From Bifidobacterium sp. ESL0769 (GTDB lineage: Bacteria > Actinomycetota > Actinomycetes > Actinomycetales > Bifidobacteriaceae), in NCBI RefSeq assembly GCF_029395495.1, contig NZ_CP113918.1, positions 2,418,001-2,482,000 of the forward strand: DNA of 64,000 bases, read 5' to 3'. The notes under the pieces were generated by a model. It made no database searches and was not told where the DNA came from. It saw nothing but the letters and a program-made list of their open reading frames with translations. The translations under genes and the position numbers were made by a program. Of this stretch, positions 23,553-62,900 are shown in pieces (the first letter of the stretch is position 1; every line of letters begins with the position of its first letter).

Positions 23553-26500
23553 ATGAGTGTCATTCACAGTCTCGTTGCACTGACATTGTGCATAGCCACG
23601 GGAATCGTACCCCCCCCCCGCAAAATGAACCGTCATTAAACAATCCGAACAATTCCAACCCGGCCGCCTCCAGCCAAGTTGTCACGGCCCCGTCTGCTTC
23701 TTCAGCCTCGGCCACCATCCCGGCCAACGGCCCCTCAACATCTTCCACTACTACTTCTTCGATCTCAGCCGCCTCTGCAGGCACTACGGCATCTTCCACT
23801 TCCGCTGCTGCCACCCAAAACAGCAAAAGCCAAACCGGCAACGCCGCCGGTAATCCTGCCGCCAATCAGGTCCAAAGCAGCGTCAACGCGCAAGCATCCA
23901 ACAAGTCCGCAGCCGGTCTCACCCACACCAACGCCGCCGGCACCCCCACAGCCAAACCCAAAACCCTAAGCACCATCGCAGCAGAAGACTTCTCCAACGC
24001 GTCCAAGACCCTCGCCGCATTCCTGCAAAGAATGAAATCGGCATCACACACCACCGGCGCCAATCACCAGACCACACCGGCCGCCACCATCAAATCCCAG
24101 TCATCGGCATCCGGCACCCTGCCACACGCCACAGCCGCTATGCCCGCCGACCAGAGCCCCATCGGCACCAAGACCGCATCCCCACTGACACGAAGCACGC
24201 CAACAGCCGGCCCGCAGGACGAGCCGGGATGGGGGCCACGCTATACCAACCCACAAGTCGAGAACGTATCGGTAGACCCATACGATGACGGGGCCATCAA
24301 TATCAGCGGTCACGCCGACGAAGTCCACGGCATGAACACATGGGTGGCGCTCAGGGTCTGCCCCGCAGGGACGCCCCATTCCGCAGCATCGCAACTGGCC
24401 GACAACCCGCGATGCTCCGGACCCGAATTGCTCACCGACGGCATGATGGGCGGGAATCATAACAGCCCGCACTTCACCTGGGGACCCGGCACCCTGAGCT
24501 CGAGAGCAACGACCGTCGTCGACAGCGACTTCAAGGCCGGCCCCGGCTACTACGACATCTGGGTCTGGGCCCAGAACAGCGCCGGCGCCAACAGCACCAC
24601 ACCAGTTTCAGTCCGCTCCTATTACTACTGCAGCCACGCGCCAACCACGAAGGTCACACTCACCTACAACATGTCAGGCATGCCGGGCGCATCCACGCCA
24701 AGCTACACGACAGCAAACACAAGCGCGGGACAGGCTAGCATCCAACTCGCCTACGAGCCCAGCCACCCCTCAAACGAGATATTCGACGGATGGTATCTCA
24801 ACTACTCCAACTACAACGCCGGCCAGACCGTGACCTTCGGCTGGCGCACCAACGCCACGTACACCGTCACGCCCCGCTGGCACTGGTCCACCACCGTGAC
24901 GTTCAACTATAATCTCAACGGCATGTCCGGCAGCACACCGGGTTCCCTGCAGTTCAACACCAGCTACTCCGGCGGCTCGTTCACCCTCCCGAATCCACCC
25001 TCGCACCCAGACTGGCAGATCTTCGAAGGATGGAGCATCGACGGCTCCAGCACCATGAACCCCGGCCAGACCTACACCTACGCCGCCCACGACAACGGGA
25101 CCCACACCATCACCGCACGCTGGCACACCCGCTACGACACCGTCACCATCCACTACGACATGGGCGCCACCGGCTGCAACAAGCCGCCAGACCAGTCCGT
25201 GGACAGCACCTACTACACCAACACCACCCTCGCAGGAACCCCCGCCACCTGCCCCGCACACACCGCCTTCGACGGCTGGACCATCAACGGCAACAACTAC
25301 AACCCCAGCGGCACCTTCAGCTTCGCCCAACACGTCACCGCCACCTACACCGCCACCGCACGAACACACGCCGTCCAGGCGCCCACCGGACTGACCGCCG
25401 CCTACCACATCGCCGGCACCGTCACCCTGTCCGGCACCAGCAACGTGGTCTCCGGCGACAAGGTCACCGCCTGCATGACCGAAGGCACCGGCGACACCGC
25501 CTGCCAACCAGCCATCACCGCCACCAGCACCAACAGCGCATGGCAATGGACCGCCACCTTCCCCGCCACCGACTACACCACACGCTACGGCATCGGACAC
25601 TCTCACCACTTCACCGCCAAACTCACCAGCAAAAACGTCGACAGCACCCAAGCCGACCTCAAGGGCATCCTGCCCTGGACCACTCTCAGCTTCGACAAAG
25701 GGACCAGCGGCGGCACCGCACCCGCCAGCAAGGACGCCCTGACCGACACCACCTCCAACAAGGCCACATTCACCCTGCCAGGCCAAGGAAGCATGACCGC
25801 ACCCGCCAACGCATGGCCCGACTTCACCGGCTGGAGCGACGGCACCACCCTCTGGCAGCCCGGCAGCAGGGACATCCCCACCACCATTGACGGCGCATCG
25901 ACAGATGCGAGCGGGCACACCACTCTCACCCTCACCGCCCAATGGCACGTTGTCACCGCCCCCAGCGGCGTCACCGCCACATGGTCACACACCACAGATC
26001 AAGTCTCGTTCAAGGCGTCAGGCCTGCCGACGGGGACGACCAGCTGGCAGATACGATACAAGACCAATAGCGATCAGTCCTGGTGGACCTCGCCCAACGA
26101 CACGATGACACCCACCGACACCTACCATACGTATTACTCTGATTTCACAATCGGCGACACGTGGACCGCACAGGTGCGCGCCACCGCCGACGACGGCTCC
26201 GGCCACACCGTCACCAGCGACTGGAGCCAGGAGGTCACCGGCATCCTGCCCTACATGGACATCACCCTCAAACCCGGCGAAGGCACCGGGCCGGTCACCG
26301 ACCCCCACGTGAAAAGCCTGGTCGACCCGGACGACCACAACGCCCACCTGGCCCTGCCCACCGCGGCCGACAAGGGCATGAGCGGGCCCGACGGCAGGAT
26401 CTTCGCCAACCAATGGAACACCAGCAGCGACGGGTCCGGCACCAGCCACGCCTCAGGAGGCTACGGCGTAACCATCCCCGCCAGCGAGGGCACACCCGAC

Positions 26501-29107
26501 GGGCAGGCCATCAGGCTCACCCTCTACGCCCAATGGAAACCCCAATCGCCCGCCCCAGCGGCCGGCCACTGCACCGACGGGCAGGCCGGCGCAGGCGGCT
26601 GGGCGCAATGGGGCACACCCGCCGGCCCCGTCGCCGGACTGGCCGGGCAGAACACTGCGGCCGCCTGCTGGGTCATCGACGGCACCGTCCTGCGCCTATC
26701 CGGAGGCACCAGCCCCGACTACCAATCCAGCTCGGACATCCCCTGGGCCAGCCAGGCCGGCAGCATCACCAAGGTCTCCATCGAGGGCGACCTCACCCTC
26801 AACAAGACCAACAACAGCTTCAGCGGCCTGTTCGGCTACGGCAACTACTACCACAAATTCACCACGCTCACCACCCGCGACGGCGGCAAGCTGCGCATCG
26901 CCAACCAGGCCGGCAGAAACCTCTTCGACTACGCCTACAAGCTGGCGGACATCGACCCGTCCGGCTGGGACGTCAGCCAGGCCACCGACCTCAGCTACAT
27001 GTTCCACACCACAGCCACCTCCTTGGACCTGTCCGGATGGAAGACCGGCAACGTGACCACCATGGAAAGCATGTTCGAGGGGGCCAGCAACCTGACCAGC
27101 CTCGACCTGTCCGGCTGGGACACCCGCAAACTCAACAACACCTCCAACATGTTCAGGTCGGGACATCTCGCCGACATCGACCTCGACGGCTGGATTACCA
27201 CCCAGCTCTGGTACGCCAACACCATTGGCATGTTCCCCGCCAGCCTGCAACGCCTCCGCCTCGGACCCCAAACACGCCTGCCCGACCCCGTCGCCGTCGG
27301 CGGCAGCAACTTCTACGACCCCTTCAAGTACGTGGTGCGCGCCGGCCACACCTGGCACGAATGGGACTGGCCCAAAGGCCACCACCCCGCCGACAGCGGG
27401 CCCGTCGGCACCACGCCACTCACCGCCGGCGACGGCACGGCCGACACCCTCAGAAAACGCTGCGAATCAACCACACCCCAAGGCGTCTACATCCGCGACG
27501 ACCTCACCCCCACCTGGACCGACCTCACCTACAACCTCAACGGCGGCACCGGCGACACCAGCCTGCCCACACAAGTCGGCGCGGCCGCCACCAGCTCCAC
27601 ACCGAAGCGCGACGGGCTCGCCATCGACACCACCTTCAAAGACGGAACCTACACCATCCCCGACGGCACTGGCGACACCGGCAACGCCACCCACCACATC
27701 ACCACCAACAAACCCCACAGCCTCTTCAACGGCTGGACCATCGACACCGGCAACGTCACAGCAAACGCGTCCGGAGGCACGGCCACCGTCAGCAACCACA
27801 CCATCACCGCGGCAAAGGGCGCCGGCGGCACAGCCGCCGTCACCGCGCAATGGGCCCCGACACCCGAGGCCATGCCCGGCACACCGCAGGTGGGCGTCAC
27901 CCCGCACACCACGGACCAAGGAGGTGTCAGCGTCAGCGTCAGCGCCACGCTCGACCAGGCCATGCCCGCCATCGACGCCACCGGCGGCGACCCGGCCAAG
28001 CCGGCCGTAAATGCCGGCGGCACGGTCAAGGTCTGCGCCAAACCCAGCAGCCAGAACGACGACTTCTACCCGGTGCAGTGCAGCCCCAAGACCAGCACCA
28101 CCGCCGGCAGCCAAACCATCACCCCCGAGGCGCTGCAACTGCCCGGCAGCTCCGCCATCTCCGGCAACGCGCCAGCCTTCCCCGACCCCGGCGAACAGTA
28201 CACGCTAGCGGCCATGTACACGCTCACCGACCCCCAGACCCGCAACCAGATCGACTCCACCGCCACCCAAGCCGGCGGCGGCCTCACCACCGGCACCCTG
28301 CCCTGGGCCGACACCACCTTCGACACCAACGACTCCCACGGCGGAACCGGCACCGCACCAACCAGCCTCAAGTCGTTCGTCGACACCGCCAGCGGCAAGG
28401 CCTGGGCCACCCTGCCCAACGCCACCACCACCATGAAACCCGGCCACTTCGTGTTCGCCGGATGGTCCGCCACCGCGAGCGCCGCCAACCCCGACCAAGG
28501 CATGGGCGACCCCGCCAGCCGAGTCATCCAGCTCGACGCCGACGGCGCCACAGAGACCCAGACCACCCTCTACGCGGTCTGGCACAAGCTCGGCGTGCCC
28601 ACCGTCACCGGCATCACACGCGACCATATGAACAACACGGTCACCATCACCGGCACCAGCACACCCTGGACCAGCGAGGACGACATCACCCTCGACCTCA
28701 CACCACTCGACGGGCAAACAGGCCTCACACCCGCCGGCGCGCGGCACGTCGTTATCAGCCCCACCGACCAGCACGGAACCATGCTCGCCTACGACGGGCA
28801 CACCGCACACCCCTGGACCCTGACCCTCACCGCAGACGAACTGCCCAAGGGCGGCCGATACCGCACCGTGGCCAAGCTCGAGGCCCACGACCGCGCCTGG
28901 CGCGACACCAACGCCGACCTCCACGTCTACAGCGAACCCGACCAGCAGAACCAACCCGCCATCGACGGCTACTTCCACCACGCCCTGCCCCTGACCGGCG
29001 GGCAACGCACCATGCTAATCATCACCCTCACCTTGCTGGGAGTGTTCCTCATCGGCATGAGCCAGCTCGCCCGCAACCGCCGACGCTGGCACCACCAATA
29101 CCAATAG
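23553..29107 (+). CDS. Phase-variable giant LPLTG surface protein 1 (assembled OFF, C10)
   Basis: ATG 23553 starts a hydrophobic leader (MSVIHSLVALTLCIATGIV) that runs into ten C residues. As written it stops at 23639, while the adhesin body lies in another frame, open to 29107 (about 1,839 residues from GTG 23588). Eleven or eight C would fuse them. The body has a Ser/Thr/Ala-rich stalk, then the segment LTHTNAAGTPTAKPKTL shared with its paralogs. A unique domain follows (about 24250-24640), then Listeria-Bacteroides repeats ending in TARWH and Ig/FN3-like modules. A DUF285 block with LDLSGWDT units (26910-27230) and further Ig-like modules complete it. LPLTG is at 28985-28999, before a membrane helix and RNRRRWHHQ. 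An adhesin role is inferred. GTG 23588 alone would give no signal peptide. Confidence 0.85.
23610..23619 (+). repeat. Poly-C tract, 10 C, in leader of giant 1
   Basis: Ten C at leader codons 20-23. C10 reads CGC AAA ATG AAC CGT CAT TAA; C11 and C8 read CCG CAA AAT GAA into the body; C9 reads GCA AAA TGA. Confidence 0.9.
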
Positions 29108-31462: not shown

Positions 31463-34400
31463 ATGGGTGTTATTGACGGTTTTGTCGCTTCATTGCTATG
31501 TTTAGCCATGACAATCATGGCTCCGATGTCTTCTGGAGCGTCCAATGACCCGGTGGGGCCGTCCACCCAGACGACATCGAGCCAGGCCGCGACTAGTCAG
31601 ACCGCATCGGCCACTTCCGCCTCTGTGTCTTCCACGATTCAGACTTCTGCGTCTTCGGCGTCTTCCGCCACCACTTCTTCGATCTCCGCTTCCTCGACCG
31701 TCACCACGACGGCACCTTCCGCTTCTGCTAGCACTACCTCCGCTGGCACCGCCCAGGCCAGCAACGGTCAAACCGGCAACGTCGCCGCTGATCAAACCCA
31801 AAACACTGTCAATGCACAGGCATCCAACCAGCCTGCGCAACCATCGCACACAAACCAAACCCAAAACTCCAACCAAACCATCAATACCAAAGAAGGCAAG
31901 CGCGCCAAAGGCAAAAACACCACTCATACCAACTCTACCGGCCTCACCCACACCAACGCCGCCGGCACTTCCATAACCAAACCCAGAACCCTAAGCACCT
32001 TCGCAAGAAAAGATTTTGCCGATGCTCCCAAGACCCTCGGCAACTTCCTCCAACGCCTGAAACAACCGAGCCGCCACAGCATCAACAAGCGCCAAGCCAA
32101 GTCGGCCGGTAGCACAGGTTTCCAGTCATCGACGGCCAGAACCCTGCGAATCGCCACGGCGACCCTGCCAGTCGGCCCTGGTCCCGTCGGAGGTAGAGCC
32201 GTTTCTCCGCTGGCGCGAAGCGGCTCGTCGGTGGGTGTGCAAGACGACCCGGACATGGTGGTTGGCCCGCAGGGTTATGGGCAAATCAGTGTCTCTTCGT
32301 GGAGTGTAGGGGCGAATGGAGTAGTGACGGCTTCGGGCGTCGCTTCGGATTATTACGGCCAGGCCATCTTTCCGCATATCCGCGTCTGCCCCGTGGGTGT
32401 GAGTCCCGGTACCTCGGGTACGAACAATGTTCCCTCCCAATGCTCGGATTCGGAAATGATGACGGAGGGGCATGTCGGCGGAGCAACGGGTGACAACATC
32501 CACTGGTCGGGCGTGTATACAAGTTTCGGCGGCCATGGTCCGAACGGTTCAGACTTCGTGAATGATGCCGGTTACTATAACTTCTATGCATACACGCAGA
32601 CCTGGGGCGATAGTCATACGAGCGATATGGTCAATTTCGAGTCGTACTACTATTATGTGGGCGCACGCAGGGTGACCTATGCGTATGTGTCAATCAATGC
32701 CAACGGTGGTTCGGCGGCTTACCCGTCGAGTCTGTCGACGGACACGACCGATGGAAGTGGCTCGTTCGACCTGACCGCCTCAACGCGCCTTTCAGCCAAC
32801 AAACCGGGCTGTGTGTTCACCGGTTGGGCCACCACGTCCAGCGGCTCCGGCTCCACATGGAGCCCCGGATCTGGCACTGCCTACGTACCCCAGCATGACA
32901 CCAGGAGCGTGACCCTCTACGCCCAATGGCGAGCCGTGCCCGCCGCAACAGTGAACGCGCCGTCAGTCAGTGTGAGCGCGCCGCAATCGTCCTCGCCAAC
33001 GGTGTCGGTGAGCGTATCAACGTCTGGGTTGGGCGGCTACTCCGGGTCGACTGTGCTGTCGACCGCCTACGGGTCGCGATCCTGCTCTAGTCCCTCCTCC
33101 TGCTGGGTATCGGGCTGGCCGGTGTCCACATTCCAGCCGACGATGGGCGCCACATACTCGCTGAGCGTTTCCGTGACCGTCCAAGACCCGTACACCGGCC
33201 ACGGCGTGTCAGTCACCACCTCGTGGGCTTCTGGCGCGTCCGGCACGGGCACACTGCCCTGGATGAGCGTGAGCTACGACAAAAACGGGGCCACCGGTTC
33301 AGCGCCCGCTAGCTCGTCCGCGCTGGTCGACGCCGCGAGCGGCAAGGCCTACTTCACTCTGCCCGACGGCACGGGCATGACAGCGCCCGCCCGCAAGTTC
33401 TTTCATAATTGGACCACCGCACCGGACGGCACCGGCAGCGCGTTCCCGTCCGGTGCGCAGGCCGTCCCCACCTCCGCCGGCACGACCACGGACGCCCACA
33501 CCACCGTCACCCTGTACGCGGTGTGGGGCGACCCGCCCGCGCCGACCGGCGTGTCCGCCTGGTACAGCCATGCGGACAGCCGAATCTACCTGGACGTGAC
33601 CGGCTTGGATCCGAACGCCACCGGCTGGGTCATACAGGTCAAGCCCACCGGCACCGAATACTGGGAGTACACGCAGTCCCTGCCCACGCGCGGACGGTCT
33701 TACTGCTCCACGCTCTCTTACTTCACGGTGGGCGCCACGTGGCAGGCGCGGGCCCAGGCACTATACGGGGATGGAATATCGAGCGTGTGGAGCGACACGT
33801 CGTCGGGCGTCCTGCCCTACATGGACGTCACTCTTCTGCCAGGCGGCCAGCAGCCCGGCGACACTGCTGTCGCCCACGCCAAGGGTCTGGTCGACCAGAC
33901 CGAACGCAAGGGGTATGTGACCGTGCCCGAGGGCGTGGGCGCGACGCCTGCGGGCACGGTGTTCCAATCCATAGGCGGGTGGACGACCCGTGCGGACGGA
34001 TCCGGCGTCGCCTACAATTCTGGCGATATCGCCATCCCCACCAACGTGGGCACGGCAAACGGCAACGCAGTCCTGCTGACCCTGTACGCGCGGTGGCAGA
34101 TGAGCACGTCGGCGCCCGCGCGCGGGCGGGCGTGCACGAGCGTGTCCGGCTGGCAGCAGTGGGGCACATCGGCCGGGGCAATAGCGGGTGTGGGAGACAC
34201 GGCCCACCCGCAGGATACGGGCGCAGTGTGCTGGGCCATCGAGGGCTCGACCTTGCGACTGACCGGCGGCACCGGGCCCCTCGACTTTAGCTATAGCAAC
34301 AGCAGAATCCCCTGGTGGGGGCGTCGTGCCTCCATCGCCCACGTCAGCATCGAGGGCGACCTCACCCTCATCAGCCGGAGCACCAACTATGGCGCCTTCC

Positions 34401-36574
34401 AGGGCATGACGGCCCTGACCTCGCTCGACAACGGCAACCATGCCATCCACCTTGCCAAGCAAGCCGGTGGAAGGATGTTCAGCGATGACACGTCCCTGGC
34501 CGGCCTCGACCTGTCCAATTGGAGGACCGACACCGCCACCAGCTTGTCGCAGATGTTCTACAACTGCGACAAGCTGGGCGAGCTGAAAGGCATAAGCGGC
34601 TGGCAGACCGGCCAGGTCACCGAACTCGACTACATGTTCTACGAAAACAAGCGCCTCACCATGCTAGACCTCTCCCGGTGGGACACCAGCAACGTCGAAC
34701 GCATGGATAGTGTTTTCTTGTGGTGTGACCGCCTCGTGGACCTCGACATCAGCGGCTGGGACACCAGCGGCGTCTACCAGGCCGACTACTCGAACTTGGC
34801 CAGCATGCTTCCCAACAACCTCAAACGCCTCCGGCTGGGCCCCAAGACCATCCTTTTCAACCGTTACATCGTCGGTCAGAGCGGCAACCCCTTCATGGGC
34901 TTCGACAGCACCCACACCTGGCACCAATGGGACTGGCCGGCGGGCCACCACCCCATCGACAACGGTGCCGTCACCGACCCCACGGGCACGGCCACCGCCG
35001 GCACCCTCGACGCCCTCGAGGCACGAGCCGCCTCAGCCACCCCGGCCGGCACCTACATCCGTGACGACGTCAACCCCACCTGGACCGACCTCAAATACGA
35101 CTTGAACGGCGCCACCGGAGACACCAGCCTGCCCACCGCCGTCAGCACCACCGATAGCGCTGGCCTCGCCATCGATACCACCTTCGCCGACGGGTCGTAC
35201 ACCATTCCCGATGATGCCGCCACCCACATCACCGCCAACAAGATTCACAGCCTGTTCCAAGGCTGGAGATACGACACCAGCGGCGTCGCCAGTGGCACGC
35301 CCGTGGTCAGCAACCACACAATCACCGCGCCCAAGGGGACCGGCGGTGTCGCCACCGTCGACGCGTCTTGGAACGCGTTGGAGGGCGAGGCCTCGGCTAC
35401 GGTCGGCAAGGTGAGTGTGGCCACGAACACCGCCGACAAGGGCACAGTGACGGTGAATGTGGCCGCGGTCCTTCCTGTGAGTAGTGGCAATCTCAAGGCT
35501 TGCGTGAAACCCGGCAACCAGACCGACGACTATGCCAGCAACCAATGCCAGAGCGTGGCGAGCAGTGCCAGCGGCCAACAGATCGCGAGTGTGCCTGCGT
35601 TCACACTGCCCGGATCACTCGCGGCCAACCAATCCACGACCTTCCCTGCACCTGGCTCGGCCTACACGATGGCGGCCATGTACACGGTCAAAGACCCTGC
35701 GACCGACAACGATGTCGATAGTGAGGCGACCGAGGCCGGCGGCGGCATCACCGCAGGCGTCCTGCCCTACGTGAGAACGCTGTTCGATGTGGACGCGGCG
35801 CACGGCGGGCAAGGCACACCTCCGGCAAATATGCTGGCCCTGGTGGATTCGACGTCGGGCAAGGCGTGGCCCACGCTGCCCCTGCCCACCGCCACAATGA
35901 CTCCCGACCACGCGGCTTTCAGGGGCTGGGCCACCAGTAAAGGAGCCACAGGCCCCGACACGGGTATGGGCGACCCCGCCAACCGCGCCATCACGGTCAA
36001 CCAGCACGACGACGACACCGAAACCGATCTCAGCCTCTACGCGGTGTGGAGGAGACCCGCTACGCCCGTAGTGGACTCCGTGGAGCGTCATGTGGACAAT
36101 ACCGTCACGCTGAGTGGCACTGTCGTTCCACAGAGCGACACGGACACGATGCTGGTCCGTCTCGCCGCCTTGGACGGGCAAGAAGGTCCGGCGCTCGGCG
36201 TCCCGTTCCTGGCCGCCATTAGCCCGACGGATGCATCATCGGGCGCGACCCTGCCCTACGACGGGGCCGCTGCCCACCCGTGGACGCTTACCATGCAGGC
36301 CACAGACCTACCCCAGGGCGGCCGCTACCAGGTGGTGGCCGTGCTCAATATGGGCGAGGACGGCGCCTGGCACGGAGTGACCACGCCTCGCGTGGTCACC
36401 AGTCCAGATCCGGATCCCGTGCCCGCAGTTCACTTGCAGGAGCCCTACGCGCACGCACTTCCCCTCACCGGCGGGCAACGCACCATGCTCATCATCGCCC
36501 TCGCCCTGCTGGGAGTATTCCTCATCGGCATGAGCCAGCTCGCCCGCAACCGCAGACGCTGGCACCACCAATAG
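31463..36574 (+). CDS. Giant LPLTG surface protein 2 (no C tract, in frame)
   Basis: 1,703 residues in one uninterrupted frame from ATG 31463. The leader MGVIDGFVASLLCLAMTIMA is related to that of the switching paralogs but continues APMSSGASND with no C tract. After it come a Ser/Thr/Ala-rich stalk to about residue 110, the shared LTHTNAAGTSITKPRTL segment and a unique domain (about 32260-32670). Listeria-Bacteroides repeats, FN3/Ig-like modules and a DUF285 block (about 34470-34800, LDLSRWDTSNVERM) follow. LPLTG is at 36458-36472 before the helix and RNRRRWHHQ. It should be made constitutively or under regulator control through the paired operators. An adhesin role is inferred. Confidence 0.85.
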   Translation: MGVIDGFVASLLCLAMTIMAPMSSGASNDPVGPSTQTTSSQAATSQTASATSASVSSTIQTSASSASSATTSSISASSTVTTTAPSASASTTSAGTAQASNGQTGNVAADQTQNTVNAQASNQPAQPSHTNQTQNSNQTINTKEGKRAKGKNTTHTNSTGLTHTNAAGTSITKPRTLSTFARKDFADAPKTLGNFLQRLKQPSRHSINKRQAKSAGSTGFQSSTARTLRIATATLPVGPGPVGGRAVSPLARSGSSVGVQDDPDMVVGPQGYGQISVSSWSVGANGVVTASGVASDYYGQAIFPHIRVCPVGVSPGTSGTNNVPSQCSDSEMMTEGHVGGATGDNIHWSGVYTSFGGHGPNGSDFVNDAGYYNFYAYTQTWGDSHTSDMVNFESYYYYVGARRVTYAYVSINANGGSAAYPSSLSTDTTDGSGSFDLTASTRLSANKPGCVFTGWATTSSGSGSTWSPGSGTAYVPQHDTRSVTLYAQWRAVPAATVNAPSVSVSAPQSSSPTVSVSVSTSGLGGYSGSTVLSTAYGSRSCSSPSSCWVSGWPVSTFQPTMGATYSLSVSVTVQDPYTGHGVSVTTSWASGASGTGTLPWMSVSYDKNGATGSAPASSSALVDAASGKAYFTLPDGTGMTAPARKFFHNWTTAPDGTGSAFPSGAQAVPTSAGTTTDAHTTVTLYAVWGDPPAPTGVSAWYSHADSRIYLDVTGLDPNATGWVIQVKPTGTEYWEYTQSLPTRGRSYCSTLSYFTVGATWQARAQALYGDGISSVWSDTSSGVLPYMDVTLLPGGQQPGDTAVAHAKGLVDQTERKGYVTVPEGVGATPAGTVFQSIGGWTTRADGSGVAYNSGDIAIPTNVGTANGNAVLLTLYARWQMSTSAPARGRACTSVSGWQQWGTSAGAIAGVGDTAHPQDTGAVCWAIEGSTLRLTGGTGPLDFSYSNSRIPWWGRRASIAHVSIEGDLTLISRSTNYGAFQGMTALTSLDNGNHAIHLAKQAGGRMFSDDTSLAGLDLSNWRTDTATSLSQMFYNCDKLGELKGISGWQTGQVTELDYMFYENKRLTMLDLSRWDTSNVERMDSVFLWCDRLVDLDISGWDTSGVYQADYSNLASMLPNNLKRLRLGPKTILFNRYIVGQSGNPFMGFDSTHTWHQWDWPAGHHPIDNGAVTDPTGTATAGTLDALEARAASATPAGTYIRDDVNPTWTDLKYDLNGATGDTSLPTAVSTTDSAGLAIDTTFADGSYTIPDDAATHITANKIHSLFQGWRYDTSGVASGTPVVSNHTITAPKGTGGVATVDASWNALEGEASATVGKVSVATNTADKGTVTVNVAAVLPVSSGNLKACVKPGNQTDDYASNQCQSVASSASGQQIASVPAFTLPGSLAANQSTTFPAPGSAYTMAAMYTVKDPATDNDVDSEATEAGGGITAGVLPYVRTLFDVDAAHGGQGTPPANMLALVDSTSGKAWPTLPLPTATMTPDHAAFRGWATSKGATGPDTGMGDPANRAITVNQHDDDTETDLSLYAVWRRPATPVVDSVERHVDNTVTLSGTVVPQSDTDTMLVRLAALDGQEGPALGVPFLAAISPTDASSGATLPYDGAAAHPWTLTMQATDLPQGGRYQVVAVLNMGEDGAWHGVTTPRVVTSPDPDPVPAVHLQEPYAHALPLTGGQRTMLIIALALLGVFLIGMSQLARNRRRWHHQ

Positions 36575-46500: not shown

Positions 46501-49500
46501 ACAGCGCATGGCAGTGGACCGTCACCTTCCCGTCCAACGAGTACACCGACAGGTACGGCTACGGCCACCAACACCACTTCACCGCCAAACTCACCGAAAA
46601 CAACGCCGACAGCGCCACCACCGATCTGCAAGGCACTCTGCCCTGGATGACCATCAGCTACCAGCATGGCGAAGGTGCCACTGGCACCACACCCGACACC
46701 AACGCCCTGACCGACACGGCCACCGGCAAAGCCACCATCACCATCCCCGGCCCCGACGGACTCACCCACCCCCACATGTGGCTCACCGGCTGGCAGAACA
46801 CCACCGGCGGCCCCGTCTGGCAGCCCGGCAGCAGGGACATCCCCACCAACACCGACGGCGCCACCACAGGACCCGACGAGCACACCACCCTCACCCTCAC
46901 CGCCCAATGGCGCACCGTCACCGCACCCACTGGCATCACCGCACGCTACAGCCACGCGGACTACAACCGCGTCTATCTGACCGCCACCGGCCTCCAAGCC
47001 GGCATCACCGACTGGGATATCCAGGTCAAACCCACCGCCACCAGCTACTACCGGTCCGCGTGGAACACGTCCACGACCGGCCAGTCCTACTATGACGGTT
47101 CAGATTTCACGCCCGGCGACACATGGATGGCCCGAGCCCGCGCCATCTACACCGATTCCTCCGGCCATACCGTCAGCAGCGACTGGAGCACCGAATACAC
47201 CGGTGTCCTGCCCTACATGGACGTCACGCTGAAACCCGGCGACGGCACCGGCGCCGACGCGCACACCAAAGGCCTCGTCGACTCAAGCGACCACAACGCC
47301 TACCTCACCCTGCCCAAGGCCACCGACCAGGGCATCAGCCCGCCGGCGGCCATGAACTTCGACCGTTGGGACACCCGCGCCGACGGCACCGGCACCGCCT
47401 ACCCCATGGGGCAGGCCGCCATCCCCACCAGCCTCGGCACCCCAAACGGACAAGCCACCAACGTGACACTCTACGCCCAGTGGAAACAAAGCACCCCCAC
47501 CGCCACACCAGGCAACTGCACCGCCGGCGGATGGAACACCTGGGGCGCACCCGGCACCCCAACACCGGGACTGACCCCGGCCGACTCGCGTGCCGTGTGC
47601 TGGACCATCGACAACGGCGACACCCTCCGCCTCTCCGGCGGCACCAGCCCCCAATACACCAGCAGAACCTTCCCCTGGACCACACAGAAGGACACCATCG
47701 CCAAGATCTCCATTGAAGGCGACCTCACCCTCATCAGCAACAACTACGGCAACGACGGACCCTTCGAACTGATGGGCAACCTCACCAGCCTCACCGACAA
47801 CCACCACACCGTCACCCTCGACAAAACAGCCGCCGGAAGCCTCTTCTGGAACGACTCACGGCTCACCAGCCTCTACCTGTCCGGCTGGAAGACCGGCACC
47901 GCCACCACCATGGCCAACATGTTCTCGGGCTGCTCCGGCCTCAAGACCCTGACCGGCCTTGACCACTGGGACACCAGCCACGTCACCAGCACATGGAACA
48001 TGTTCGACTACGACGGCCGGCTCACGGACCTGGATCTCAGCGGCTGGGACACCAGCCACGTCACCGAGATGAGCTACATGTTCGAAGGCTGCGACTCCAT
48101 GGCGGACATCGACCTGACCGGCTGGAACACCCAAACGCTCCACGACTCCTACTATGGCGGCATGGGCGGCCTGCTGCCCCGCAACGTCAAACGCCTCCGC
48201 CTCGGCCCCAACGCCAGGCTCTTCACCAAAGACTCCGACGACCCCTTCACAAACGTGGACGCCACCCACACCTGGCGCGAATGGGACTGGGCTAAAGGCC
48301 ACCACCCCAGCGACCTCGGACCCGTCGGCCCAACGTCAGGGACACCCGGCGACGGCACTCTGGCCACCCTCAAGACACGAGCCGACAACCACCCCGAAGG
48401 CGTCTACATCCGCGACGACGTCAACCCCACCTGGACCGACCTCACCTACAACCTCAACGGCGGCACCGGCGACACCAGCCTGCCCGCCCAGATAGGCCAG
48501 GCCGCCAACAGCGGACAGCCCAAGCGCGACGGGCTCGCCATCGACACCACCTTCAAAGACGGTGCTTACACCACCGCCGCCCCCACCCACATCACGGGCA
48601 ACAAGCCCTACCAGCTGTTCAACGGATGGACCATCGACACCAGCGGCATGACCGGCGGCACAGCCACCATCAGCAACCACACCATCACCGCATCCAAGGG
48701 CGCCGGCGGCACCGCCACCGTCACCGCGCAATGGACCCCCGTCCCGGAAGCCACACCCGGCACACCCCAAGTGACGGTCACCCCGCGCACCACGGACCAG
48801 GGTTCCGCCGGCGTAGGCGCCACCGCCACGTTCAACACGGCCATGGACGCGATCACCGACCCGGCCAAGCCCGCCATAGCGGCCGGAGGCACCATGAACG
48901 TATGCGTCAAACCCAGCAGCCAGACCGCCGACTACACGCCCGGCCAATGCCAGGCCAAGACAAGCACCACCGCCGGCAGCCAGACCATCACCCCCGACCC
49001 GTTCACACTGCCCGGTTCCCTGACCGGAGGACAAGACACCACCTTCCCCGCACCCGGCGAGGAGTACACACTGGCCGCCACCTACACCACCCACGACCCA
49101 CAGACCCGCAACCAGATCGAATCCCTGGCCTCCCAGAACGGCGGCGGGATCGCCACCGGCACCCTGCCATGGCTCAACCTGACCTTCGACACCAACGACA
49201 CCCACGGCGGCAACGGCACCCCACCCACAGCGCTCCAGTCGTTCGTCGACACCGCCACCGGCAAGGCCTGGGCCTCCCTGCCCAACGCCACCGGCACCAT
49301 GAAACCCGGCAACGCCGTCTTCGCCGGCTGGGCCACCACCGCGAGCGCCACCGACCCCGACGCCGGCATGGGCGACCACGCCAATCGCAACGTCCAGCTG
49401 CCCGCCACCACGGGAGCCACCGAGACCCGGACCACCCTCTACGCCGTCTGGCACAAGCTAGGCGCGCCCACCGTCACCGGCATCAAACGCAGCGCCCTGG

Positions 49501-49973
49501 CCAACACCGTCACCATCACCGGCACCGCAATCCCCTGGACCGGCGAGGACGACATCACCGTCGACCTCACACCCCTCGACGGGCAAACAGGCCTCACACC
49601 CGCAGGCACACGCCACGCGACCATCAGCACCACCGACGGCCAAGGACACGCGCTCGCCTACGACGGGCACACCGAACACCCATGGACGCTCACCCTGCCG
49701 GAGAACGAGCTGCCCACACGAGGCCGATACCGCACCGACGCCAAGCTCGAGGCCCACGATTACCAATGGCGCGACACCAACGCCGACCTCCACCCGCACA
49801 GCGCCGTCGCCAGTACACAATCCAACCTCCCCGGACACCACCAGCACGCCCTGCCCCTCACCGGCGGGCAACGCACCATGCTCATTATCGCTCTGGCCCT
49901 CCTAGGCGTACTGTTCACCGCAGGAAGCCAGGTCGCCCGCAACCGCAGACGCTGGCACCACCAATACCAATAG
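43579..49973 (+). CDS. Phase-variable giant LPLTG surface protein 4 (assembled OFF, C10)
   Basis: The leader MSVINSLIALTLCIATGIV starts at ATG 43579 and meets ten C; as written it ends RKMNRH then stop. The body, 2,119 residues from GTG 43614, is in the frame reached with 8 or 11 C. It is the largest of the set. It has a short Ser/Thr-rich stalk with LTHTNAAATPTAKPKTL and, unlike its paralogs, an N-terminal DUF285-like block at about 44400-44720 (MFAGCENLTSIDF). Listeria-Bacteroides and FN3-like modules follow, then a second DUF285 block at about 47840-48160 (LDLSGWDTSHVTEMSYMFEGC) and Ig-like modules. LPLTGGQRT and RNRRRWHHQYQ end it. An adhesin role is inferred. Confidence 0.85.
43636..43645 (+). 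repeat. Poly-C tract, 10 C, in leader of giant 4
   Basis: Ten C between GTA and GCAAAATGAACC, the same site and length as in giants 1 and 6. Confidence 0.9.
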
Positions 49974-50794: not shown

Positions 50795-53700
50795 ATGAGC
50801 GTCATCAACAGTCTCGCTGCACTTGTGTTGTGCATAGCCACGGGAATCGTACCCCCCCGCAAAATGAACCTTCAGTAAACCAGTCAAACAATCTCAACCC
50901 GGCCGCCTCCAGCCAGACCGTATCGGCCACCTCCGCCGCCGTCTCCGCATCATCGACGATCCAGACCCACGGCTCCTCCGCATCCTCGTCCACAACATTT
51001 TCCACTTCCGCTCCCACCGGCAACGTCGCCGGCACCTCCAACACAAACGCAAATCAACACAAAAACACCCAAAACAGTAAACGCACCACAGGCAAAGACG
51101 CCAAAACCACGCACGCGACCGGCCTCACCCACACTAACGCCGCCGCCACCCCCACAGCCAAACCCAAAACCCTCAGTGCCCTCGCGACAAAAGACTTCTC
51201 CGACGCGTCCAAGACCCTCGCCACGTTCCTGCAACGGATGAAAAAATCGACATCCCATACCGCAAATAGCCGTCAGACTACACCGGCCGACACCATTGAC
51301 TCCCAATCATCGGCAATCGGCACACTGCCACATGACGCCGCCACACTGACCGTCAAGCAGAGCCCGGTCGGCCCCCAAACCCCATCCCCACTGACACGCG
51401 AAGCACCATCAGTGAGCACACAGGACGAACCCATGGTCGGCCCGCAGTCCAACAACCCGCGACTCACCCGCCTCTACGCCGACCCAAACGACGACGGACA
51501 CCTCCAAATCAGCGGCGAAGCCGACCAGGTCTATTCCGACAACTGGGTCCACGTGGAAATCTGCCCCGTCAACGTATCCGTCCCCGTCACCGGCTCCGGC
51601 AACTATGATGGCTATTTCGACAACCGGTGCACCAATATCGAGACTTACACCAACGGAGACATTGGCGGCTACAGAGACGGAGGCACGTTCCACTGGGACG
51701 GCAACGAAAGTCGCAACGACCACACCTGGACCACCCAAGACAGCGACTTCAAGACCGGGCCCGGCTACTACAACATCTGGGCCTACAACAGAAGCTATGG
51801 CTGGGCCCAATACCAAGGCAACATCATCCGCTCCTACTACTACTGCAGCCACGCGCCCTCCACGCAAGCGACAATATCGTACAACATGCCTGCGGGCTGG
51901 TCCACACCCGCTTCTTCACGCGTGGACACAAGCGCCAGCGACACGTCGGTAATCCTGGCCGGCACACCCAGCGGCCCCTCATGGGCCATGTTCGACGGAT
52001 GGACCTTCAACGGCAGGAACTACAACGCGGGCGCGACCGCTCAGCTACCCTGGCGAGCCACGGGCACATACACCGTCACGCCCCGCTACCACGCCCTGCC
52101 CACCAGCGTGTCGATGGCCTACAACATGAACGGCATGGACGGCACGGCGCCGGCCACACAGACCATCGACACGACCAACTACGCCGGGACATTCACCCTC
52201 GCCTCGCCCCCATCCCACCCCTCCTGGCAGGTGTTCGACGGGTGGAGCGTCGACGGCGGCGGCACACAGGCCCCCGGCAGCAGCTACGCGGTCGCGATCC
52301 ACGCGTCGGGCTCGCACACCGCCACCGCACGATGGCACGTGGGCAACACATACTCGACAGTCACCTACAACCTCAACGGCGGGACGGGCACGGCGCCAGG
52401 TTCGCGGAGTGTGGATACGACATACGGCGCCGCGTCGGTCACCCTGTCGGACGGCACGGGCGTGACACCGCCGACAGGCAAGGTGCTCATCGGCTGGGAC
52501 ACCAGCGCATCCGGCACCGGCGACCGCCGCGCGCTCGGCGCCACGGTCACGTTCGTACAGGGCCAGCACACCACATTCGCCCTGTACGCCGTCTACAAGG
52601 ACACCGTCGCGCCGACCGGCGTGACCGCCTGGTACAGCCATGCGGACAGCCGAATCTACCTGGACGTGACCGGCCTGGACCCCAACGCCACCGGCTGGAG
52701 CGTACAGGTCAAACCCGCCGGAACAGGAGACTGGCAATACACGTCAAGCACGTCGACGCGCGGCCGCTCCTACTATTACACGGTCTCAGACTTCACACCG
52801 GGCGCCACATGGCAGGCCCGCGCCTACGCCATCTACCCAGGCCACCTGTCGAGCGAGTGGAGCGCCAGCTCGTCCGGCATCCTGCCGTACATGGACATCA
52901 CCCTCAAACCAGGCGACCAACAGCCCGGCGACACCGCATCGGCACAAGCCAAGGGCTTGGTCGACCAGGCCGAACGCAAAGGGTATGTGAGCCTGCCCGC
53001 CGGTGTGGGCACCGCGCCCGCAGGCATGGCCTTCCAGTCATCGGGCGGGTGGACCGTCCGCGCGGATGGTTCGGGCAACTCCTACAACTCCGGCGACACC
53101 GCCATCCCCACCAGCATGGGCGTGGTCGGAAGCGACGGCACCATCCTGCTGACCCTGTACGCCCGCTGGAAGCCGACCACTCAGGCGCCGGCCCGCGGGC
53201 AGCCGTGCGCGAGCGTAACCGGCTGGGCCCAGTGGGGCACCAGCGCCGGCGCGCTCAGCGGCGTCACAGGCCAAGACACCGGGGCAGTGTGCTGGGCCGT
53301 CGAGGGCTCGACCCTGCGCCTGACCGGCGGCACCAGCCCCGTCTACCAAAACAACTTCCCCTGGAACGCCAGCAAGAGCGCCATCACCGACATCCACATC
53401 GAGGGCAACCTCACCCTCGCCATCGCCAACTACAGCAGCACACCTTTCAACTACATGCCCCATCTCGGACACGTCGACATCGCCCCGGAGGGAAAGCTCC
53501 GCCCCGCCTACAACACCGCCGGAGACCTGTTCAGCAACAACCCGTCGCTGGAACGCCTCGACGCCAGCCGCTTCGACATGACCGCCGCCACCACCATCAG
53601 CAGCATGTTCAGCTACGACACCGGCCTCAAGGAGGTCACCGGACTGGAACACTGGGACACCAGCCAAATCGACGACATGTCCCGCATCTTCCAAGGCGAC

Positions 53701-55545
53701 ACCAGCCTGGAAAACGCCGCCGGCACGGAGAACTGGGACACCGGCCACGCGAACAACATGATCTACGTGTTCAAGAACTGCGACAGCCTGGTCGACCTTG
53801 ACCTCAGCCATTGGAAGACCAGCCAGCTCAACAACTACGGCATAGCCCAGATCATCCCAGCCAACCTCAAACGCCTCCGCCTGGGCCCCGACACCAAACT
53901 CGCCTCCGGCAGCGGCTACGACGACCCCTTCGTCAATCTCGACGCCACCCACACCTGGCACGAATGGGACTGGCCCAAAGGCCAACACCCCAGCAACCTC
54001 GGCCTCGTCGGCCCGAACACCACAACACGCGGCGACGGCACCCCCGCCACGCTAAGGGCACGAGCCGCCAACAACCCGGCGGGCGTGTACATTCGCTCGG
54101 ACGTCACCCCCACATGGGTCGACGTCGCCTACGATCTTGCCGGCGGTTCCGGGCCCGCCGCCACGTTCCCCACCGGCATCGGGCCCGGGACCACACCCAA
54201 CGCGGCCATCGACACCACCTTTACCGACGGCACCCTGACAGCCGACCCCAAGGCCATCACCGCCAACAAAGCCCACAGCCTGTTCAACGGCTGGGCCCTC
54301 GACACCACCGAAGTGACCTCCGCCGGCAAACCCACCCTGAACGCGGGACTAGTCGACGCTCCCAAAGGCGCCGCCGGCGCCATCAAGCTCACCGCCAAGT
54401 GGGCCGCCCTCGACTCGCCCGCGCCGACGCTTTCCGCGCCCGTCGTGCATGCCGCAGCCGGGGCCACGCCCACCGTGGATCTCAAGGTCGGCAACCCCGC
54501 CACGTACAAGACCGGCGGCAAGCTCGCCATCACCACCAACCGGTGGACCGCCCCTGTCCACACTTACACGTCCGACGGCACCGGAGGCGACGCATCCCTC
54601 ACCGGGCAACCAGTCACGGTCCTGCAGGCCTCCTGCGGCCAGGCATACACCATCGACGCCGCCTACACCGACCCCGACGCCGCCGACACCGCCACCGGCA
54701 ACACCGTCACTCCCAACCCCGGCCACGCCACACAACTGGCCGGCACCCTGCCCTACGCGACCCTCACCTTCGACGCCAACAACGCGTACGGCGGAGACGG
54801 CACCCCGCCCGCCGAAATCAAACGGCTCATCGACACCACGGACGGCAAGGCGCACACCACCCTGCCCCTGCCCGGGAACACGATGAAACCCGCGCACGCC
54901 GCGTTCACCGGATGGGCCTCCACCGCCATGGCCACCAGCCCGGACACCGGCATGGGCGACCCCGCCAGCCGCGCCATCACGGTCACCCAGCACGGCACCG
55001 ACACCGAGACCCCCCTCACCCTGTACGCCGTATGGAAACAGCCGGCCGCGCCCACGGTCACCGGCATGACGCGCGCCGCGACCGACAACACCGTCACCAT
55101 CACCGGCACCACGGTCCCACAGACGGCCACGGACACCCTCAGCGTCGCCGTCACCGCCCTCGACGGGCAGGCCGGCACCTCCCTGGGCACACCCCTGACG
55201 GCCACAATCGGCGACACATCCAACAGCTGGGACGGCCTGACCGCCCACCACTGGACGCTCACCATACCCGCCGCCGGACTGCCCCAAGGCGGACGCTACC
55301 AGATCGTGGCCACGCTCGCCACCGGCGAGGACGGCGCCTGGCGCGGATCCCCATCGCCCCGCACGGTCACCAGCCCCGACACGGACCCGGGCCCCGGGCT
55401 ACGCGTCCCCGGCCACCACCAGCACGCCCTGCCGCTGACCGGCGGGCAACGCACCATGCTGATCATCGCCCTCGCCCTGCTCGGCGTCATCCTCACCGCA
55501 GGAAGCCAGCTCGCACGCAACCGCAGACGCTGGCACCATCAATAA
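50795..55545 (+). CDS. Phase-variable giant LPLTG surface protein 5 (assembled OFF, C7)
   Basis: The leader MSVINSLAALVLCIATGIV begins at ATG 50795 and reaches a shorter tract of seven C; as written it ends RKMNLQ then stop. The body, 1,571 residues from GTG 50830, needs 8 C (one more) or 5 C. It has a Ser/Thr-rich stalk with LTHTNAAATPTAKPKTL, then a unique domain (about 51440-51840). Listeria-Bacteroides repeats follow (FDGWSVDGGG, TARWH), with an FN3-like module very similar to that in giant 2 (WYSHADSRIYLDVTGLDPNA). A DUF285 block (about 53525-53850) and Ig-like modules lead to LPLTGGQRTMLIIALALLG and RNRRRWHHQ. Module sharing with giant 2 suggests past recombination. An adhesin role is inferred. 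Confidence 0.85.
50852..50858 (+). repeat. Poly-C tract, 7 C, in leader of giant 5
   Basis: Seven C at the same leader position, three fewer than in the other copies and therefore in the same (OFF) frame class. A shorter tract should slip less often. Confidence 0.9.
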
Positions 55546-55718: not shown

Positions 55719-55777
55719 GAACTTCGGTATACCGAAGTTCGGTATGAGTAAGCTTGGTATATCAAAGTTGCTATAAT
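55719..55777 (+). promoter_or_regulatory. 22-bp perfect palindrome and extended -10 promoter
   Basis: A perfect 22-bp palindrome at 55719-55740 has half-sites of GAACTTCGGTA. A third AACTTCGGTAT lies just upstream (55705-55715), and a looser palindrome, AGCTTGGTATATCAAAGTT, lies just downstream (55751-55769). An extended -10 (TGCTATAAT, ending 55777) adjoins. This looks like an operator controlling the downstream ATPase gene. Confidence 0.65.
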
Positions 55778-56038
55778 CAAGATGGAAACTCGTCCGTCAC
55801 CGAACGCTTGTCACTGAACGCACGTCGCCGAACGCTCGGAATCCCGAACGCACGGAACCAAACGCCCGGAACTGCGGCACAGAACGGCAACACGGAACCG
55901 GCGGCCCCAAAAATGCAGCCCAGAACCGCAGCGCAGAAGCAACAAAACCGCAGAACGGCGACGCCGACCCCAAAAGCGCAACCGGAACCGCAAAAAGGCG
56001 ACGCCAACCCAAAAACGCAACCCAAAAGGAGGCACGCG
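55778..56038 (+). other. Low-complexity leader upstream of the ATPase
   Basis: CGAACGC-, GGAACC- and CGACGCC-type short repeats fill this stretch. The frame of the ATPase is open through it, but the Shine-Dalgarno sequence at 56026 argues it is untranslated. Confidence 0.5.
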
Positions 56039-57484: not shown

Positions 57485-57570
57485 CAGATACCGTTTAGAT
57501 TGACGCGGCGGCAAAGTGGCGGGAAACCGTGCCCCACATCAAGTTCCCCGCTTCGCCTTCACTATCCCAA

Positions 57571-57704: not shown

Positions 57705-57838
57705 ACTGTTACACTAACAATACTTATCCGCAACCTGGCAAAGGCCTAGCACACACGTATTCACGTATCTCGAGGGGCGGTGACTGATCCCGCAACTGCC
57801 GGAGCCGGCACGGAAATCAGGAAATAGGAGGGACTGCA

Positions 57839-59338: not shown

Positions 59339-59390
59339 GTACTGACCCGAAGTACGGTACGATGACTGACCACATAAGCGACTGACACCA

Positions 59391-59510
59391 TATGTGAAGG
59401 TTTAATGAAGCTTAGTCATTTACTTGGCAATTACTTGGCAACTTGGTCACTTACTTGTGCAACTTATGCAAAGTACCTGCCAAGTTCGCAATTCATGCGG
59501 CTACTTGGTC
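59391..59510 (+). repeat. 120-bp direct repeat, right copy
   Basis: Partner of 57571-57690, with the same TATGTGAAGG start and ACTTGGCAA/ACTTGTGCAA units but small indels. Confidence 0.8.
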
Positions 59511-59665
59511 GCTTGCTTGCGTCATCCGCCAGCCGTACAGGACGCTTACGAAACCTTCCGCCGCCAACGTCATCCACCAACCGTCCGCATGGAAGAAAGC
59601 ACCGAGCAAGGGCAAACCTGACACTCACGGATCGGCTCACGCGGACGGAAGACGGTGCACGAACC
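59511..59665. other. Short gene-free spacer before copy 4 of the shared region
   Basis: I see no gene or repeat that I can support. Confidence 0.4.
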
Positions 59666-59946
59666 GCGACACGCCGAAGGATGGTGCGGTTTCGCTGTGT
59701 TTTGAGGCCACGTCAAATCCTTCCAAAGGCCCACAAAATGTAAGGCAAAGTAGGACGGCAAACGTTCCACACGCCCCCGGCAACGACGACGGAAACCCCG
59801 ATTCGCCATACAACCCCGGTTTGAATTTGGTCGGAAGTGCCCCTAATGTTTAATCAATAGTTTAGGTGTTGTGTGAAACTGCGGCGTATTACATAGAGTC
59901 GCGTTTAGAAGAGTCAGAAGTTTTGAAGTAAAAGGGTGGGTACCTT
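59666..59946 (+). promoter_or_regulatory. Shared upstream region with promoter, copy 4
   Basis: It starts with GCGACACGCC. The promoter is TTGAAT (59821-59826), 17 bp, TAATGT (59844-59849). A GGGTGGG ribosome binding site precedes ATG 59947. Confidence 0.7.
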
Positions 59947-62900
59947 ATGAGTGTCGTTCACAGTCTCGTTGCACTCGCGTTGTGCATAGCCACGGGAATC
60001 GTACCCCCCCCCCGCAAAATGAACCGTCATTAAACAATCCGAACAATTCCTCCCCGGCCGCCGCCTCCAGCCAGACCGCACCGGCCGTCCCCGTTTCCGT
60101 ATCGACTCCGTCCACCGTCCAGGCCCACGGTTCCTCCGTATCCAATTCCCCCGCACTTTCCACTTCCGCTACTACCGCTCCCGCCACTTCTTCGCTTTCA
60201 GCTCCCTCGACCGCCGCGCCCAAGGCACTTTCCGCCCCGGCCGCCAACGGCCAAACCGGCAACGCCGCCGGCCACGCCCCAGGCACCCCCAACACAACCG
60301 CAGACCAACTCAAAAACACCCAAAACAGCAAGCGCACCGCAGGCAAAGACGCCAAAACCACGCCCGCGACTGCCCTCACCCACACCAACGCCGCCGCCAC
60401 CCCCACAGCCAAACCAAAGACCCTACGCACCCTCGCAGCAAAAGACTTCACCGACGCGCCTAAGACTCTCGCCGTCTTCCTGCAAAGAATAAAATCGGCA
60501 CCCCACACCAGCGACAATAACCAACAGACCACACCTGCAGGCAGCTTGCCACGCGCCGCAGTCACACTGCCTAACGTCACTGCCACGCTGCCTGCCAAGC
60601 AGAGCACGATCGGCCCCAAAACCAGCTCTCCATTGACACGAAGCAAACCTACGGTCGGTCCACAGTACATTAACAATGAAAACGTAACCCGCTTCTACGT
60701 CGACCCCAACGATGACGGACACATCCAAATCGAAGGCCACAACGAGCAACTCTACCATCCCAAGACCTGGGTCCACATAGTCGTCTGCCCCAGAGAGGTC
60801 AGAGACAAGGCCGTCACAGGCCGCCCAGGCCACGTCGATAGCCGATGCACCGATATCGAGACCTACACCGACGGTCATACTGGTGGTTATGGAGATGGAG
60901 GCACCTTAAATTGGGGTCCTGGCAGCGTAGGTCGCGACCCCATTTGGACCACTCGAGACAGCGATTTCAAAACCACCCCTGACCATTCTCATGCTTATGA
61001 CATCTGGATTTATAACACTGACGCCAACTGGAATCACTATGATTTTGCAGATGCATCTAATGACTACTACTGCTCTCAATCAGGAAGAAAAAGAGTCACA
61101 CTCACCTACGATATGTCAGGTATGCCTAACGCGTCAACACCTGGATCACAGGAAAAGGACACCAGCTACTTCGACTTCAGCACCACTTTTGCTAGCGAAC
61201 CGAGTCACCCTTCATGGCAGATCTTTGACGGTTGGTCCCTCAAAGGCACCAACTACAATGCCGGTCAAGCCATAACCTTCCCTGCTGGCACCGACGGCAT
61301 ATATACGGTTACGCCTCGTTGGCATGTCAAGCCCACCAGCGTCAAATTCAATTACAACCTCAACGGCATGTCCGGCAGCACGCCCGGCTCCCAGCAGGTC
61401 AATACCACCAACAACGGCGGCTCGATCACCCTGGCCTACCCGCCCTCGCATCCTGACTGGCAGATCTTCGACGGATGGACCGTCGACGGTTGGAATAACA
61501 TGACCCCCGGCCAGACCTACAGCGTCGGCATCCACGACGAGAGCACCCACACCGTCACCGCGCGATGGCACGTACGCCCAGACACGGTCACGATACACTA
61601 CCAAGACAACGGCTCCGGCTGCAGCATGCCCGGCAACCAGACCGCCGACAGCGGCAACTACAGCAACACCACCCTCGCCGGCACGCCGTCCTGCCCCGCG
61701 CACACCGTCTTCGACGGGTGGACCATCAACTACAACAACTACAACCCCGGCGGTACCTTCAATTTCGCCCAGCACGTCACCGCCACCTACACCGCCACCG
61801 CCCGCACTCACACCATCAACGCGCCCACAGGGCTCGCCGCCTCCTACCACGCGAACGACAACACCGTCACCCTCACCGGCGCCGGCGACATAGCCGCCGG
61901 CGACACCGTCACCGCCTGCATGACCGACGGCACCGGCAACGACATCTGCCACAGCGCCACACCCGTGGCGCTGCCCGCATCGAGCCACCCCACCGTCAGC
62001 GGATCCAGCAGCCACGGACTCACAGTCACCGGCATTACCAAATCAGGAGGACAGGTCACCCTGTCCGGCCGCGCCAACGGCGGCTGGGGCGGCGGCGTCG
62101 TCAAAGTACGGCTGCGCTCCTGCCCGGCAAGCTACCAGTTCTCCGGCGGCACCGGGTGGGGAGGAACGTCCGCGCCCTCCGGCTGCAATGAGACGGAAGC
62201 CACCGGCAACCCCCACTTCCCCGGCTGGCCGACATGGCTCGGGGAGCAAGGCAACTTCTGGACCGGCAGCATCGCATGGAGCCCGGGCCAGAAACTCTGG
62301 GTCTACATCCAGACACAGGGAGCAAGCATCGACGGCCCACTGCTCGTCAACCCCGACAACACCAACGGCACTCCCACTCACACCAACTGGACCATAAACT
62401 TCCCCGCCGGCGAATACACCGCCAAATACGGCTACGGGCACCAGCACCACTTCACCGCCAAACTCACCAGCAACAACGCCGAAAGCGAACTGGCCAACCT
62501 GCAGGGCACGCTGCCCTGGACCACCGTCAACTTCGACAAAGGCGACGGCACCGGCACCGCACCCGACAGCGTGGACGCCCTGACCGACACCATCGTCAAC
62601 AAGGCCACACCCACCATCCCTGGCCAAGGGTCCATGACCGCACCAGCGCACGCATGGCCGGACTTCACCGGATGGAGCGACGGCACCACCCTCTGGCAGC
62701 CCGGCAGCAGGGACATCCCCACCAACACCAGCGGTGCCACCACAACCGACGGGCACACCACCCTCACTCTCACCGCCCAATGGCACACCGTCCAGGCACC
62801 CACCAACCTCACCGCCGCCTACCACATCACCGGCACCGTCACCCTCACCGGCACCAGCAACGTCCAGTCCGGCGACAAGATCACCGCCTGCATGACCGAA

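Follow-up and report, generated by a model that had tools for sequence, protein, structure and literature searches.

Surface genes of Campylobacter and Neisseria can be phase variable through a poly-G or poly-C tract in their 5' part, with the reading frame setting the gene ON or OFF. Nearer to the organism considered here is Gardnerella, which belongs to the same family, the Bifidobacteriaceae. In the part of the Gardnerella report available to us, homopolymer tracts of at least 8 bases lie in or near LPXTG/repeat surface-protein genes, and an in vitro length change is given for one GA-module gene (PMC11287997). The accessible text on Listeria describes inlA, an anchored surface protein gene with a poly-A tract near its 5' end that yields a very short peptide when out of frame (PMC2831843). 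The closest system is found within the genus itself, where the sortase-pilus genes bbr_0113 and bbr_1889 of B. breve UCC2003 are switched ON and OFF by a G tract. According to the available portion of that report, the annotated reference tracts are OFF, in mice the frequency of the ON lengths increases twofold and tenfold, and slippage was measured (PMC9187656). Here we analyze a 64,000-nucleotide (nt) stretch of Bifidobacterium sp. ESL0769 (contig NZ_CP113918.1, positions 2,418,001 to 2,482,000; hereafter the window, from whose first base positions are numbered), in which giant surface-type genes lie side by side from position 23553 onward and several carry a C tract behind a shared leader. 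We call these neighboring genes the array, and the genome to which the window belongs G000 (2,495,776 bases).

Because all five tract genes of the array are one base out of frame as assembled, they are probably slipped-strand ON/OFF switches whose resting state is OFF and which the gain of one C or the loss of two would turn ON, a reading to which we give a probability of roughly 0.6. A locus is called one short or two short here by the number of bases missing relative to a tract length that joins the leader and body frames, two short being also the frame of a tract one base too long. The first gene, on the forward strand like the others, begins behind the upstream block AAAGGGTGGG with an ATG-led, hydrophobic leader at 23553..23609 (MSVIHSLVALTLCIATGIV), followed by a C10 tract at 23610..23619 that is one base short and by a giant frame at 23620..29107 with DUF285, a PARCEL repeat and an LPLTG anchor. 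Immediately 3' of this tract a TGA at 23626..23628 ends the two-short frame, and a TAA at 23637..23639 ends the one-short, assembled frame. The same order recurs at leader 43579..43635, C10 tract 43636..43645 and body 43646..49973; at leader 50795..50851, C7 tract 50852..50858 and body 50859..55545; and at leader 59947..60003, C10 tract 60004..60013 and body 60014..64000, which continues beyond the window to a stop at 66470 in window numbering. Each of these tracts is one base short; the second and third bodies contain DUF285 and LPLTG, and the fourth ends in LPLTG. The four C runs in a shared leader were thus as the preliminary description had given them. It had overlooked a fifth, a C10 at 2485246-2485255 of the G000 contig (67246 in window numbering), which lies 3.2 kb past the window end, and its count of four gated loci stands for the window while the genome holds nine.

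Each tract lies 57 nt downstream of the leader ATG, at the end of the hydrophobic leader and ahead of the giant frame, and the invariant block AAAGGGTGGGT precedes the ATG at the array tract genes. As assembled, translation from the leader ATG stops five codons beyond the tract, after 27 residues at the C7 locus and 28 at the others. Leader and body join at 8 or 11 C, and 5 C also works, as had been proposed and as the two frames bear out; the assembled C10 and C7 lengths are one base off, and 0/5 array loci in G000 are ON. Stop to stop, the body frames span 1860, 2136, 1590 and 2197 amino acids, the last ending beyond the window. All seven array giants end in LPLTG, a membrane-type stretch and a basic tail; DUF285 (PF03382) scored above its curated cut-off in 5/5 window giants submitted, and the PARCEL repeat TIGR02167 in 3/3, matches that place them among the BspA/PARCEL-repeat surface proteins. 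The two remaining giants, at 31463..36574 and 36966..42923 on the forward strand, are tract-less paralogs with related, hydrophobic leaders, and both are open from their own ATG to LPLTG, as previously described. In the tract genes, an export-signal-like leader, judged by hydrophobicity only, and an LPLTG body occupy two open reading frames (ORFs) that a tract change would link. The label of adhesin would follow solely from the anchor and repeat motifs.

Read directly from the DNA are the tracts, the frames, the open bodies, the lack of an alternative signal-type start in the array genes, the early stops in the other two frames and the recurrence of this arrangement in relatives. On the switching reading, tract length would change within a population through replication slippage, and the assembled OFF state would be the true resting state in culture. 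At C10 or C7 a ribosome would make a peptide of 27-28 residues and halt, and the body would not be produced; a rare cell at C11 (or C8) would produce the whole protein and display a different surface. The leader would presumably work as a signal peptide, and the ON product would be exported and anchored to the wall by sortase. No dedicated sortase was found in the array; G000 has 7 sortase matches, none at or after the array, and the nearest two lie at about 5148-5522 and 8963-9358, the nearest about 14 kb upstream. That region holds, at 2355-5804, a gene whose LPLTG product matches SpaA weakly, with a sortase gene behind it, and at 8117-9778 another sortase gene, all at least 14 kb before the array.

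The array resembles the pili of B. breve, of the same genus, in that a short ORF holds an export-signal leader, a second ORF holds an LPXTG body, and the tract length joins them. The reference tracts are likewise OFF, and the body start lacks a ribosome site and a signal, so the precedent invoked in the preliminary description holds as far as the accessible part of the source reaches (PMC9187656). The two systems also differ: the B. breve tract is a G tract in pilin genes with a dedicated sortase in the same cluster, whereas the array has a coding-strand C tract at the leader end of DUF285/PARCEL giants and no sortase gene; two loci per genome are described there, against five to twenty here; and ON is reached there with one base fewer, here with one base more (PMC9187656). 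Most Gardnerella tracts lie upstream of ORFs, unlike those of the array, and the available portion of that work describes no shared-leader giant array (PMC11287997). Listeria inlA differs in being, in the text at hand, a single poly-A gene with no multigene array (PMC2831843). In the literature searched, whose coverage leaves out most subscription journals, we recognized no description of poly-C-gated DUF285/PARCEL arrays in bifidobacteria. Unlike the Campylobacter and Neisseria genes, which are described as switching between states, nearly all loci of the four genomes compared below are in one OFF frame. New here are the scale, a C tract located where the leader ends, the ON direction (+1 base) and the shared frame; the type of switch is already known in the genus.

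Relatives show the same relation between leader and body. The seven-gene array occurs in identical order in a sister species (G085, labeled Bifidobacterium sp. ESL0690 in its protein records), and the exact tract core was found in 2/112 genus genomes, these two. Two adjoining conserved genes are 88 and 90% identical between them at the DNA level, and the seven giants 35-74% at the protein level. All five G085 tract genes carry C10 and are one base short; the syntenic pairs differ by 0, 0, 3, 0 and 0 C, the C7 at 50852 having a C10 partner. Across the two species, 10/10 array loci are therefore in one OFF frame, and C10 and C7 are the only lengths seen. The 32 bases around the tract (20 before and 12 after; window 23590-23631) are invariant in these ten loci, in which the 5' leader varies at 14/37 sites and the bases 13-48 past the tract at 20/36. 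This invariance could come from recent conversion between copies or from constraint on DNA or RNA.

Two other genomes add further leader families. In G089, a related leader with C9 heads six genes, all in the same OFF frame (6/6 of the closest C-tract family), and another eight genes have C8 or C7. G088, labeled Bifidobacterium sp. ESL0790, has 20 gated loci belonging to several leader families, 17 of them with C tracts and 3 with G tracts. Leader and tract lengths sum differently by family (67; 71 at L019; 66, 69 and 70 in G089) and fall into all three classes modulo 3, and in every family the downstream frame is one base off, whatever the sum. We considered whether slippage had been compensated by flank indels, as in G089 (58 nt + C9) against G000 (57 nt + C10) or in the G088 loci L187 and L150, and rejected this: each pair has equal sums (67 and 110 nt), and a substitution beside the tract explains the difference. 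Protein searches for further strains, in which each cluster is represented by one sequence, gave G000 and ESL0690 in one case, ESL0790 alone in another and no match in a third. A tract-pattern scan of genome contigs gave 7 stretches, of which the one from Bifidobacterium, in B. commune, has a C11 that overshoots by one base. Early ends are seen in the bodies of L292 (257 amino acids) and L198 (327 amino acids). In two gated DUF285-type genes, L321 (G000:C1:1284098) and L249 (G086), the body frame shifts further downstream, from pseudogene formation or an assembly error.

The frame census was based on C or G runs of at least 7 bases in G000, G085, G088 and G089, where 14, 18, 47 and 26 loci were inspected. 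It was recounted on a hand-selected locus list without merging identical flanks, and excludes ungated runs and two loci, L193, which starts with TTG and has no leader, and L253, whose G7 is ambiguous; the G089 run L294 (2173114) lies within the body of L293. The gated loci number 9, 9, 20 and 14 (52 in total), with 8, 9, 18 and 12 one short (47/52), 0, 0, 1 and 2 two short (3/52), and 1, 0, 1 and 0 ON (2/52). For C-tract loci alone, 40/43 are one short, 3/43 two short and 0/43 ON. We attach no probability to this distribution because the loci are related. Ten hand-collected loci from other Bifidobacterium genomes comprise 4 ON, 2 one short and 4 one long; this set is not a census, in that L162 is ambiguous, L146 and L240 have no ribosome-site motif, and L235 of B. 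commune was dropped for lack of a leader. All three frames occur in the genus, and the four census genomes are a non-random draw. Between genomes, a single base separates homologous leaders with C10 OFF (L019, L106) from one with C11 ON (L131), and one with G9 OFF (L166) from one with G10 ON (L177). Paralogs one base apart include C9 at L154 versus C8 at L304 in G088 and C8 versus C7 in G089.

Long homopolymers are rare in the window's own genome, with 10 C or G runs of at least 8 bases per 2,495,776 bases. Four of the ten are array tracts (3 in the window and 1 beyond), the C7 at 50852 being too short for this count, and 4/6 of the remainder also lie in leaders of long surface-type genes, which brings the share in such leaders to 8/10. 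Tract placement is not due to chance. The further gated genes are the C-tract gene at 1284098 (L321) and a second, poly-G family on the minus strand at 1877620, 2093111 and 2331106 (L022, L025 and L028), with G10, G10 and G11. In these genes for giant internalin-like proteins, the tract separates MSRFT(K/E)WLR.. from a hydrophobic segment; leader and body are in frame at G11 and out of frame at both G10 copies, so that 8/9 gated loci of G000 are in one OFF frame and 1/9 is ON. The MutS domain PF00488 was not found in G000 (0/1) versus matches in 11/14 control genomes, and slipped tracts would therefore stay unrepaired.

The close stops behind the tract in the wrong frames suggest selection for prompt termination whenever the tract fails to join leader and body. 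Over 14 hand-picked flank types, the first stop comes on average after 3.9 codons in the one-short and 8.8 codons in the two-short frame, versus 26.9 and 35.5 inside the same bodies; a 15-type set that adds L203 gives 4.4 and 9.5 versus 26.2 and 33.8. Shuffling the codon order of the first 30 codons gave 17.8 and 14.6 codons (p 0/2000 for one short, 0.006 for two short), synonymous-codon resampling 14.3 and 16.7 (0/2000 in both frames), and the N termini of 40 other long ORFs 23.4 and 22.7 (0/20000 and 0.005). Among all 52 gated loci, the one-short stop falls within 7 codons in 51 and the two-short stop within 15 codons in 43, and the one-short-type frame is open for at least 40 codons in 4/4 tract-less paralogs. 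For the one-short frame this evidence is strong, for the two-short frame moderate, and it says nothing on whether the sequenced cells were ON or OFF.

When the ten array genes were searched in their assembled body frame, from the preceding stop to 450 nt beyond the tract, no start was found that gives a hydrophobic segment (cut-off 1.7, as an 11-residue mean); the highest mean reached was 1.07. An in-frame GTG at 23588 yields an ORF running through the tract, and public G085 proteins begin at the equivalent codon. It was rejected as a working export start, having neither a ribosome-site motif nor a hydrophobic segment; the tract-less paralogs begin with a hydrophobic leader. In the poly-G genes a GTG lies within the hydrophobic stretch, so their bodies could bypass the tract. 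The tract genes also have a common upstream block (about 23274-23552 and its copies) with the invariant words GCGACACGCCGA, GACGGCAAACGTTCCAC and AAAGGGTGGGT. Common regulation is possible; a search of the block for inverted repeats gave 0 pairs.

Several of these observations weigh against a slipped-strand switch. That no C-tract locus is ON in four genomes is unlike a freely switching set, and the array loci of the two species, ten in all, have stayed in one frame although their bodies are 35-74% identical. The two-short stop is less special than the one-short stop (p 0.006 against codon-order shuffles, 0.005 against other N termini), the tract-less paralogs also close the two-short-type frame early in 3/4, and L203, which is ON at G9, has no close stops (11 and 19 codons). 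Switching itself would be invisible in assemblies, from which the reading is drawn. The best fit nevertheless appears to be slipped-strand switching with a resting OFF state, like that measured for the B. breve pili.

If real, this would mean that each of the four genomes of these commensal bifidobacteria encodes between nine and twenty giant surface-type proteins under frame control. The near-uniform one-short state poses a choice between repertoires that are OFF by default and released in few cells and tract lengths that are misreported across many assemblies. On the latter account, which we regard as unlikely yet deserving of serious attention, the true tracts are one base longer (C11, C8 and C10) and the genes were ON in the sequenced cultures, perhaps still switchable. 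A near-uniform offset of one base in 47/52 loci is what it predicts, and run lengths pile up at 8-9 in G088 and G089 and at 10 in G000 and G085. Of the C or G runs of at least 9 bases in G088, 24/25 are exactly 9, which may be biology or assembly. In B. breve, moreover, tract lengths in the reference genome differed from the main lengths in culture, according to the accessible part of that study (PMC9187656). Other runs argue the opposite. Seven-base runs are in frame within the matched domain of recognized genes, DnaB in G085 and a lipoate ligase in G000, and one in a G089 GH38 gene is also in frame but ahead of its domain; the C7 at 50852 and two G089 C7 loci are therefore probably right. 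The offset does not increase with run length from 7 to 10, and L028 was assembled in frame at G11. The ESL0690 genome would have been sequenced with Nanopore and Illumina and its assembly polished by Pilon with the Illumina reads if it belongs to a stingless-bee set, a membership we infer from the strain number only, the name itself not being found in the available part of the source (PMC10128065). Either answer bears on annotation, given that the public proteins P0004 and P0006 begin in the tract region without a signal-type segment.

A distinctly less probable account takes the repertoire of nine to twenty gated genes in each of the four genomes to be locked one base out of frame, the frame being kept across species while bodies diverge, and the surface layer to be made only by low, steady reframing, in the DNA of a few cells, in RNA or at the ribosome, and not by random ON/OFF switching. 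Programmed reframing, with the tract fixed one short and a low, constant output of the body, either because ribosomes slip by -1 at C CCC CCC or because transcription adds an extra C, is improbable. The one-short frame kept in four genomes and several leader families would suit it, as would the 32 invariant bases around the tract. No downstream structure was found, however (mean folding z -0.40 over 15), an upstream ribosome-site-like motif is present in just 4/15, and C7 lacks the full in-frame heptamer. Two-short paralogs (L288, L295, L304) and ON relatives (L131, L177) also occur, and slippage in B. breve is at the DNA level in the part of the report at hand (PMC9187656).

The preliminary description had four adhesins switching independently in 16 states; the fifth locus would raise these to 32, and free switching would give a random mix of them. 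Each locus does have its own tract, one of the nine gated loci in G000 is ON, and two-locus combinations are proposed in the available text on B. breve (PMC9187656). Free switching at each locus is nonetheless very improbable, and the near uniformity of the assembled states lends the claim no support: a single OFF frame holds in 5/5 array loci in G000, in 5/5 in G085 and in 6/6 of the closest C-tract family in G089. Gene decay, with the tracts as simple frameshift lesions, would account for leaders and bodies out of frame and for the further splits seen in L321 and L249, but it has next to no likelihood given bodies of 4.7-6.6 kb open to LPLTG in 7/7 array giants and leaders and tracts conserved between species.

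Other features of the region are minor. ARAGORN calls a tRNA-Leu at 26397-26490 on the minus strand, within the first giant body and opposite to it, which is probably false. Between and after the giants lie genes at 29400-30707 (minus strand), 55754-57484, 57839-59338 and L006:11670-13403, whose products are a HipA-like protein, an ATPase_2/DUF234 protein and two Schlafen AlbA_2/HATPase_c_4 proteins with a helix-turn-helix match.

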